Positions 26,458 through 32,900 of a DNA stretch of 64,000 nucleotides are shown piece after piece (position 1 is the first letter of the stretch; every line of letters begins with the position of its first letter). A program made the translations under genes and the position numbers. The stretch is from Microbacterium sp. M28 (GTDB taxonomy: Bacteria; Actinomycetota; Actinomycetes; Actinomycetales; Microbacteriaceae), in the NCBI RefSeq assembly GCF_025836995.1, contig NZ_CP107546.1:2232001-2296000 (forward strand), written 5' to 3'. The notes below the pieces were generated by a model. That model was not told the origin of the DNA. It saw nothing but the letters and a program-made list of their open reading frames with translations, and did not search any database.

Positions 26458-26492
26458 GCGTTTCGACTCGCTCCGCTCGCTCAAACGAGCGA
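26458..26492. repeat. GCGTTTCGACTCGCTCCGCT-type repeat, intergenic copy
   Basis: Short repeat with internal CGCTCCGCTCGCTC symmetry, in the 127-nt gap between two minus-strand genes. The same GCGTTTCGACTCG sequence, in both orientations, occurs inside hrpA at 31.7 kb, so this belongs to a dispersed family. Confidence 0.65.
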
Positions 26493-29932: not shown

Positions 29933-32900
29933 ATGTCCTCTCCCGTGATCTCCTATCCCGCCGAGCTGCCCGTCAGCGCGGCCAGGGAGGAGATCGCCGA
30001 CGCCATCCGCGCGCATCAGGTCGTGATCGTCGCCGGCGCCACCGGGTCGGGAAAGACCACGCAGCTGCCGAAGATCTGCCTCGAGCTGGGTCGCGAACGC
30101 ATCGCGCACACGCAGCCGCGTCGTCTGGCCGCGCGGACGATCGCGGAGCGCGTCGCGGAGGAGCTGCACGTCGAGCTCGGCGGCCGCGTCGGCTACAAGG
30201 TCCGCTTCACGGACCAGGTCTCGGATGCCACGCAGATCGCGCTGATGACCGACGGCATCCTCCTGAACGAGATCCATCGCGATCGGCTGCTGCGGCGTTA
30301 CGACACGATCATCATCGACGAGGCGCACGAACGGTCGCTGAACGTCGACTTCCTGCTGGGGTATCTCACGCGCATCCTGCCGGAGCGGCCGGATCTCAAA
30401 GTCATCATCACGTCGGCGACGATCGACCCGGAGAGCTTCGCGCGGCACTTCGCCGACGCGAACGGCGAGCCGGCCCCGGTGATCGAGGTGTCGGGGCGGA
30501 CGTTCCCGGTGGAGATCCGGTATCGGCCGCTGGACGACGCGCCCACAACTCCTCAGCAATCGCCCCCGTCGACGCCGAATCGTCCGAATCCGGGCGGATC
30601 CAAGCCATCGATGAGGAGTTCTGAACCGGAGGACGAGGTCTCGGCGATCGTGACCGCGTTGCGCGAACTCGATCGCGAGGCTCCGGGCGACGTGCTCGTC
30701 TTCCTCCCCGGTGAAGCCGAGATCCGCGACGCGGCGGATGCCGTGCGCGCGGCGTATGCGAAGGACCGCTCCCCCACCGAGGTGCTCCCGCTGTACGGCC
30801 GGCTGTCGGCGGCCGAGCAGCATCGCGTCTTCGAGCGCAGCCGTGTCGCCGGCGTGCGCCGCCGCGTCGTGCTCGCCACGAACGTCGCCGAGACCAGCCT
30901 CACGGTCCCCGGCATCAAGTACGTCATCGATGTGGGCACGGCTCGCATCTCCCGGTACAGCAACCGATCGAAGGTGCAGCGGCTCCCGATCGAAGCGATC
31001 TCCCAGGCATCGGCGAACCAGCGCTCCGGCCGCGCCGGCCGCACCAGCGACGGCATCGCCATCCGGCTGTATTCGGAGGAGGACTTCGAGAAGCGCCCGG
31101 AGTTCACCGAGCCGGAGATCCTGCGGACGTCGCTCGCCTCGGTCGTGCTGCAGATGCTGTCGCTCGGCTTCGGCGACATTCAGGCCTTCCCGTTCCTGAC
31201 GCCGCCGGATTCCCGCGGCATCAAGGCGGCGTTCGACCTGCTCACCGAACTCGGCGCCGTCTCACTGACCGGCGACTCCCCTCGGCTGACCCGCATCGGG
31301 CGGGACATCTCCCGGATGCCGATCGACCCCCGATTCGCCAGGATGCTGGTCGAGGCCGCGAAGAACGGCGTGCTGACCGACGTGCTCGCGATCGTGGCCG
31401 GTCTGTCCATCCAGGATGTGCGCGAGCGCCCTTCGCAGGATGCCCCGCAGGGCATACGCGACGAGGCCGACCGCATGCACGCGCGCTTCGCGGACCCCAC
31501 CAGCGACTTCCTCACGATCCTCAACCTCTGGAACCACCTGCGCGAGCAGCAGCGCGAGCTGGGCTCCAGCGCGTTCCGCCGGATGTGCCGCAGCGAGCAC
31601 CTGAACTACGTACGCGTCCGGGAATGGTTCGACGTGCATCGTCAGCTCCGGTCGCTGGTGCCCTCTCGTTCGTCGAGCGAGCGGAGCGAGTCGAAACGCG
31701 GTCGCGACGAGGAGCGCGTTTCGACTCGGTCGGCTCCGCCGTCCTCGCTCAACGAACGCGGAACGAGCGACCCCGATGCCGTGCACCGCGCGCTGCTGTC
31801 CGGGCTGCTGTCGCAGATCGGCATCCTGGACGAGCGAACGTCCGCCGCGAAGGGGACGAACAAGACACCGCCGAAGGATGCCAAGCGGCGAGTCACCGAG
31901 TACCGCGGCGCCCGCGGCATCCGGTTCTCGATCTTCCCCGGCTCCGCCCTGCGCAAGAAGAGCCCGAGCGCCGTGATGGCGGCCGAGATCGTCGAGACCT
32001 CGCGCATGTTCGCCCGCACGGCAGCGGCGATCGATCCGGCGTGGGCGGAGGCGCTGGCCGGCGACCTCGCCAAGCGCCAGGTGTCCGAACCGCACTGGTC
32101 GAAGGATGCCGGAGCGGCCGTCGCCTTCGAGAAGGTCATCCTCTTCGGCGTCGAGATCATCCCGCGCCGCCGGGTCCAGTTCGCCCGCATCGATCGTGCA
32201 GCGGCCAGGGAGCTGTTCCTTCGGCACGCGCTGGTCGAGGGCGAATGGGATCCGACCAGGATCGACAAGAGGGTGAGCGCGTTCTGGCGCAGCAACGGCG
32301 AACTGCGCAAGCGCCTGGAGAAGCTCGAGGAGCGCGAGCGTCGCCGCGACATCCTCGCGGGCGATGAAGCCGTGTTCCGGTTCTACGACGAGCGCATCCC
32401 CGCCGATGTCTTCGACGTGCGCTCCTTCGAGCGCTGGTGGCGCGAGACGCTGCAGAAGACGCCGAAGCTCCTCGTCATGCGGGAGAGCGACCTGCTCGAC
32501 GACACGGACCGGGCCGATCAGAGCGAGTTCCCGACCCGGTGGACGCAGGGCGACCAGGTGCTGGGGCTCGCCTACCGGTTCGAGCCGGGGGCGCCCGATG
32601 ACGGCGTGAGCGTGGTCGTCCCCCTCGCCCTGCTCGCCCAGATCGACGACCGCGGCTTCGACTGGCAGGTCCCCGGTCTGCGTGCCGAACTCGTCACCGC
32701 GCTCCTGCGTGCGCTGCCGAAGGCGATCCGTCGCCACGTCGTCCCCGCCGCCGACTGGGCGGAGAAGTTCGGGGAACAGCTCGCCGCCGATGGACCGGAG
32801 CATCACAACGGGCTGCCGCCGCGTTCGCTGAAGGAATCGCTGGCACGGCTCATCCAGCCGCTCGCCAATCAGCCCGTCTCCGCAGCCGATTTCGACGACG

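Follow-up and report, generated by a model that had tools for sequence, protein, structure and literature searches.

The second repeat tract of hrpA in Microbacterium sp. M28 is very probably an in-frame copy of R1, a genus-wide REP-like dispersed hairpin whose copies are filtered by the tolerance of the proteins that receive them. The gene lies in the window that we analysed, a stretch of 64,000 nucleotides that spans positions 2232001-2296000 of a closed genome of 3.37 Mb in a single contig. What is new here is the repeated filling of one gene by several repeat families, which is more surprising than a single insertion. The features that matter for the argument are collected in Table 1.

Table 1. 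Positions, in the window, of hrpA, its two inserts, and a single R1 arm outside the gene.
Feature	Position	Strand	Remarks
hrpA, DEAH-box RNA helicase, 1363 aa	29933..34024	+	ORF, Pfam, and structure matches
Insert 1, in-frame R3 copy, linker between DEAD and Helicase_C	30545..30622	+	Dispersed palindromic family
R1 doublet, two inverted arms, in frame, linker preceding the OB-fold domain (residues about 579-609)	31667..31758	+	
Left R1 arm, reads GCGTTTCGACTCGCTCCGCTCGCTCGACGAACG on the - strand	31667..31699	-	One mismatch to the 28-nt arm
Right R1 arm, longer middle variant GGTCGGCTCCGCCGTCC	31716..31758	+	
Single R1 arm, gap between two - strand genes	26458..26487	+	L019, intergenic tandem

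The in-frame R1 doublet of hrpA

The product of hrpA matches the Pfam domains DEAD, Helicase_C, HA2_C, OB_NTP_bind, and DUF3418, and is similar in sequence to E. coli-type HrpA structures (9ggr, 9gft, and 6zww). Among named organisms, its closest hrpA relatives come from Microbacterium. The R1 tract is open and in frame, encodes VPSRSSSERSESKRGRDEERVSTRSAPPSSLNERG, and adds about 30 residues to the protein. Its two arms are separated by 20 nt from foot to foot. They form two sets of inverted repeats, an inner one (31679-31703/31712-31736, 25 nt, 88% complementary) and an outer one (31667-31681/31744-31758, 15 nt, 93% complementary). As single-stranded DNA, positions 31660-31765 fold at -39.4 kcal/mol (z -3.5), and none of 200 dinucleotide shuffles was equally good.

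The first-pass annotation had attributed the tract to a dispersed family, because GCGTTTCGACTCG occurs here in both orientations and again in an intergenic gap. We found this motif at 31716-31728 (+), 31687-31699 (-), and 26458-26470 (+), and the attribution is borne out by much longer identities. Positions 31717-31755 are identical over 39 bp to an intergenic copy (L342) and positions 31666-31699 over 34 bp to another intergenic copy (L006), while 36 bp of the tract are identical to an R1 copy within another gene (L343). All six frames of the hrpA doublet are free of stop codons. Five intergenic doublets have two to four of their six frames open, and a doublet in the gene of a FAD protein has five. 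Each of the three frames of a composite consensus doublet is interrupted by a stop; the spacer of the hrpA doublet is shorter.

The AlphaFold2 model of HrpA shows residues 584-610 as coil with pLDDT <50, and the alignment to 9ggr, the best structural match, is interrupted at residues 586-648 and 202-233, i.e., at both inserts. The R1-bearing linker is probably floppy, with the proviso that the model is also poor at residues 341-395, a conserved part, so that low pLDDT does not equal disorder everywhere in this protein.

Dispersal, anatomy, and placement of R1

The 28-nt R1 arm matched 20 places of the M28 genome at ≤3 mismatches, and the same pattern read backwards matched none. Arms with a variable or longer middle were found in four further places, which gives a total of 24. 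The absence of other copies, which the first-pass annotation had named as evidence against a dispersed origin, is therefore not observed. The R1 unit is an arm of 28-37 nt that occurs as singles, tandems, and inverted doublets. Under the strict pattern, seven doublets were identified in the 24 loci, with 20-34 nt between arm feet; the other arms stand alone or next to a degraded partner. No close inverted partner was seen in the sequence next to the arm at 26458. We detected R1 in 86 of 149 Microbacterium genomes (M28 included), with 0-107 arms each. Outside Microbacterium, 245 genomes of the same bacterial family were searched at ≤1 mismatch, and four of them had R1, with one arm apiece, which makes R1 essentially a Microbacterium family at this stringency. 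Regular tandem arrays were found at G037:C12:95679-95877, G136:C3:379080-379215, and G044:C1:3081076-3081377, with spacings of 57, 54, and 137 bp, respectively.

The anatomy of the arm was studied in genome G098, which has 57 R1 arms and gave 144 distinct pattern matches for the analysis of covariation, some of them chance matches. The triplets of the outer stem covary (CGT/ACG in 57, GGC/GCC in 21, and GGT/ACC in 11 of the 144 matches). Positions 1-3 were paired in 73, 89, and 85% of the matches, against shuffled maxima of 56, 81, and 60%, and pairing ended after position 3 (5, 16, and 31% at positions 4-6). The R1 arms of M28 alone (21 matches) showed no excess of outer-stem pairing. Judged by eye, the inner part in G098 ranges from GC-GNA-GC up to GGCGGC-GCA-GCCGCC. 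The view that the arm is not itself a hairpin was dropped, since these inner parts are variable and palindromic. The arm is, with the same high probability as the explanation of which it is part, a hairpin with a covarying 3-bp outer stem, TGAG...CGAA, a variable inner stem, and a GNA loop. The constancy of TGAG and CGAA counts as no evidence because both were fixed by the search pattern. Tandem sheared G-A pairs are possible between TGAG and CGAA, and loops of the GNA type have a high stability. Two unlike arms often lie in tandem in G098 (L232-L261), with feet GGC/GCC and CGT/ACG, and in places a mirrored pair follows.

R1 is not the only family built in this way: R2 (GGTCCCTGAGCYTGTCGAAGGG) follows the same architecture, with CCC/GGG, TGC/GCA, and CGC/GCG as its outer triplets. 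In the 21 R2-type matches of genome G280, only one of the three positions was paired more often than in the shuffled maximum. Of 120 genomes of the bacterial family, 15 have R2, the highest count being 516 copies. At ≤1 mismatch, genomes of other genera had 516 (G436), 442 (G415), 81 (G386), and 48 (G402) copies, and the backwards control had none. We rejected R2 as a component of the hrpA tract of M28, whose genome has just two R2-like places at ≤3 mismatches. The hrpA linker of genome G128 contains a hybrid unit (L114) with R2-like feet (CCCTTCG / CTCAGGACC) and an R1-type middle, which suggests that R1 and R2 recombine or have a common origin. Several G280 proteins include in-frame R2 sequence (L265, L266, L268, L270, L272, L277, and L278), which is translated as GSLSLSKG, PSTGSGT, LRQAQGP, or PEPVEGP.

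To place the copies relative to genes, we called genes with a purpose-made codon model, which agrees with the open reading frames of the window around hrpA. Nineteen of the 24 R1 loci of M28 are intergenic, four lie in good coding frames, and one (L017) lies in a doubtful short frame, a weak one of 84 aa, and was left out of the coding count. This answers the question of copy number and coding share, which had been proposed as a check of the dispersed origin. Nine of 18 intergenic copies are between convergent genes, nine between tandem genes, and none between divergent genes; one further copy is tandem. The coding hosts are hrpA, the FAD protein, which has fumarate-reductase-type domains and which we read as NadB-like, a biotin carboxylase, and a DUF2520 protein. 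We could class 53 of the 57 arms of G098 (hrpA included, some arms lying side by side): 26 are convergent, 18 tandem, and one divergent, for a total of 45 intergenic arms, and eight are coding. As a background, the G280 stretches have 217 gaps of 30 bp or more, of which 43 are convergent, 119 tandem, and 55 divergent.

The genomes of M28 and G098 have together 12 coding copies, of which we excluded L104 (hrpA again), L299 (no Pfam domain), and L301. The nine that were tested all lie outside every Pfam domain used, against 2.9 expected, with one assumed boundary, that of the first ABC domain of L290. Their hosts are HrpA, the FAD protein, the biotin carboxylase, the DUF2520 protein, a glycine cleavage P-protein, a dual ABC ATPase, an ABC exporter, DnaX, and a carboxyltransferase. 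In dnaX of G098 (L295), the peptide encoded by R1 is located past the recognised domains of DNA polymerase III gamma/tau, and in the biotin carboxylase of M28 (L344) it lies between domains. Coding avoidance is not general, since in 400 kb of G280 the matches are commoner in coding than in intergenic DNA (18 of 31 R1/R2-type matches are coding, about three of the 18 being chance-like, with long loops). Six of these 18, i.e., six of the 15 credible ones, lie in hrpA, which has six R1/R2 units in this genome (L278), and G280 was picked for its hrpA. The first-pass annotation had offered two alternatives, that this helicase tolerates loops or that such elements spread into coding DNA; both hold together, as the elements enter coding DNA elsewhere too.

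Occupation of hrpA linkers across relatives

We compared the same linker in 130 loops of the genus (M28 included), made of 30 loci and 100 further places among the matches listed; 365 of 366 genomes match, and, since the R1 tract was part of the BLAST query, the sample leans to R1. All comparisons are between genomes of different species. At a score of at least 15, R1 was found in 13 and R2 in seven of the 130 loops, against five and 22, respectively, of 1524 control windows of the same loci. The matches at this score that lie outside the linker are, among those listed, copies in other hrpA loops. Such filled loops are found after SATIDPESFA, RYRPLV, LGAV, FARMLVEA, and LDER, in FPGSALR, and near residue 1040. 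With a looser score of 14, the conserved stretch DEAHERSLN also gives chance matches. At a score of at least 13, the cut-off used for the tree, 17 loops have R1, eight have R2, and 105 have none. The 25 loops with this score surpass their own codon-shuffled versions (p 0.005-0.01, 200 shuffles each), and none of the 130 loops has a stop codon. Within the genus, the site is used repeatedly, and the residues, the orientation, and even the repeat family vary from case to case.

The situation is different in other genera. None of 20 hrpA loci scored above 12 for R1. Eighteen of these loops span 21-30 residues, and those of Agrococcus (L050) and Pseudoclavibacter (L083) are long and not R1-like. 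Hence, we did not find a tract with conserved residues at the same site in distant relatives, an outcome that had been put forward as an argument against insertion.

The linker is occupied in several lineages. When loops with and without a repeat were mapped onto a quick tree built from the flanking protein, 18 changes were required, of which at least nine are forced by starred branches; R1 requires 12 (eight forced) and R2 seven (four forced), gain and loss being indistinguishable. Genomes with R1 in the hrpA linker have a median of 20 R1 arms, against 1 in the others (n = 9 vs 50; p = 0.003, uncorrected for kinship), as expected if supply drives occupation.

The hrpA gene carries repeats of three families, R1, R2, and R3. 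In 29 genomes, hrpA (about 3.7 kb each) had 37 R1/R2 matches in 108 kb, spread over 14 of the genomes. By comparison, mfd, which encodes the transcription-repair coupling factor, had one match in 100 kb, and the coding parts beside mfd had two matches in 74 kb. This comparison favours hrpA to some degree, as the 29 genomes were those that best matched a tract-containing query in BLAST, and mfd, the sole control gene, may simply have shorter linkers. The more frequent filling of hrpA probably results from its several long linkers, which would be disordered and tolerant to changes in length.

A single housekeeping gene of one genus thus comes with numerous natural insertions, which belong to at least two families and occupy the same as well as different linkers. 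Together with the repeat-free hrpA alleles of relatives and a control gene, they make it possible to ask from sequence alone how often dispersed repeats become protein, and whether protein tolerance or target preference decides the site of insertion. The hrpA linker is in this sense a natural record of repeat tolerance inside proteins.

Origin of the copies and comparison with known repeat systems

The sequences suggest the following mechanism. A mobilising enzyme may spread R1 copies by single-strand hairpin transposition in trans, or copies may spread by recombination with each other. Selection would then purge those that break genes or promoters. The survivors would be found between gene ends, or, when stop-free and in frame, between protein domains, where they would be translated as extra residues. 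Tolerance of the protein would thus be the cause of the retention of R1 in hrpA.

Other origins can be considered for the tract and its relatives. A hypervariable, low-complexity linker might have drifted, the Ser/Arg/Glu-rich tract being a product of protein evolution and its likeness to the repeat one of codon bias. The 130 loops do vary in length and sequence, and charged residues abound in many of the loops without repeats too. Yet, such drift is contradicted by exact identities of 39, 36, and 34 bp to other places of the genome, by the loops that surpass their codon shuffles, and by the R1 scores of the linker relative to those of control windows, where the high-scoring matches, as listed, are themselves copies in other hrpA loops. 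We regard it as extremely improbable. It is unlikely, if less so, that one ancient insertion was inherited and then scrambled or lost, in place of repeated insertion. Some loops share their arrangement (L105 and L109) or have similar tandem arms (L103 and L112), R1-bearing loops cluster on the tree (12 changes versus 16.2 with shuffled labels), and each change could be a gain or a loss. However, at least eight R1 and four R2 changes are forced by the starred branches of this quick tree, two families occupy the same linker, other hrpA loops are filled in other species, and the hrpA copy of M28 matches copies of its own genome.

The hairpins might also have been kept for a function. If they controlled the hrpA message at the RNA level, one would expect the enrichment of hrpA over mfd and its neighbours, and the presence of R1, R2, and R3 in this gene. 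We find this very unlikely, because the copies vary in place, number, and orientation, 15 of the 29 relatives lack any at that score, linkers of unrelated enzymes take R1 too, and the enrichment rests on one control gene. In E. coli, HrpA is described as a factor that rescues ribosomes after collision (Campbell et al. 2025, as cited in PMC13159725). It is a long shot that hrpA is for this reason a favoured and useful target, whose message would take up hairpins of several repeat families time after time; there they would slow ribosomes and let HrpA sense the need for itself, and an autoregulatory circuit of hrpA would have been built from mobile hairpins. It is just as improbable that R1 copies are bidirectional transcription terminators spread by selection and not mobile elements. 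Their strong bias to convergent gene ends and their stable hairpin would fit this role, but none of 50 arms is accompanied within 25 nt, on the side where a terminator would need it, by four consecutive T or A, copies share long exact identities, and some lie in frame inside genes, where termination would be harmful.

We therefore retain the dispersed REP-like hairpin as the most probable source of the tract, and searched for its mobiliser and carriers. The TnpA-REP transposase that the first-pass annotation had suggested looking for was not found: the Y1_Tnp profile (PF01797) had no match in the M28 genome and matched one of 148 genomes of the genus. This genome (G040) has two R1 arms. Hence, the Y1 family is not the present mobiliser in the genus, and we rejected RAYT/TnpA-REP in this role. 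R1 had no match in 50,697 phage records and was found in one plasmid record, in two places, so these collections give no sign of a carrier. A search of Rfam with ten loci (E up to 0.5) retrieved no family; one match to a microRNA family, which at 27.2 bits stays far under the gathering score of 90 bits, was taken as chance. An attC-like recombination site (GTTGAGC) was rejected because its partner side does not seem to fit.

The Rickettsia palindromic elements (RPE) of these obligate intracellular proteobacteria are found in frame inside protein-coding genes. R1 is also palindromic, in frame, and intragenic, a likeness that concerns the mode of insertion alone. REPIN/RAYT systems consist of inverted doublets of hairpin arms with a short spacer, in high and variable copy number. 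R1 likewise has inverted arms with a spacer and a high and variable copy number, but Y1/RAYT was not found in 147 of 148 Microbacterium genomes, whatever the number of copies. The short mobile MITE-like units with open frames described by Delihas (2007, PMC2759123) are placed between and inside genes with the frame kept; they differ from R1 in being enterobacterial and 103-168 bp long.

The closest comparison is with the GTAG/CGTC REPs, presented in the main text of Di Nocera et al. (2013, PMC3733652) as small palindromes that form dimers and groups, mainly between convergent or unidirectional genes. Some are reported there in frame inside genes, RNA helicases among them, and recB of two Xanthomonas species has a REP at about the same site; intragenic REPs had thus been documented there across many genes and species. 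The same text states that CGTC REPs lack a dedicated transposase and equates RPE-4 and RPE-6 with them. R1 shares with REPs the dispersed hairpin unit, which in REPs measures 20-40 bp, the bias to gaps between convergent or unidirectional genes, and a covarying stem, the latter in G098 and not in M28 alone. It differs by the lack of a constant GTAG/CGTC end tag: GTAG (on either strand) lies within 10 nt of the arm end in three of 50 R1 arms, and CGTC is inside the arm in 29 of 50 (seven of 20 in M28), hence not a constant end tag. Moreover, here one gene bears repeats of three families in many species, and R1 belongs to Microbacterium, whereas the word actinobacteria is absent from the main text of that paper. 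Since R1 lacks both the tag and the RAYT, we class it as a REP-like variant and not as a member of the REPs. With R1, a REP-like family is present in a genus that has next to none of the known REP transposase. In the library searched, and among the papers listed there on REP, RAYT/REPIN, palindromic in-frame elements, and intergenic repeats or MITE in Microbacterium, Microbacteriaceae, Actinobacteria, and other phyla, we found no account of these repeats.

The idea of two independent palindromic insertions in hrpA, also proposed from the first reading of the window, holds in a stronger sense, as insert 1 belongs to a different dispersed family, R3. This family is MITE-like, about 100 bp long, and has the ends TTCACAACTCCTCA / TGAGGAGTTGTGAA (L303-L306 and L310). 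These ends matched 16 places of the M28 genome at ≤3 mismatches versus one in the backwards control; among the ten R3 loci inspected some, e.g., L307-L309, look like chance. The residues of insert 1 (197-232) are modelled by AlphaFold2 as coil with pLDDT <50. In the same linker of the relatives L028, L031, and L111, the R3 stem is altered on both sides (AACTCCGGA / TCCGGAGTT), and L025 has yet another version (AACTCAGTCG / CGACTGAGTT).
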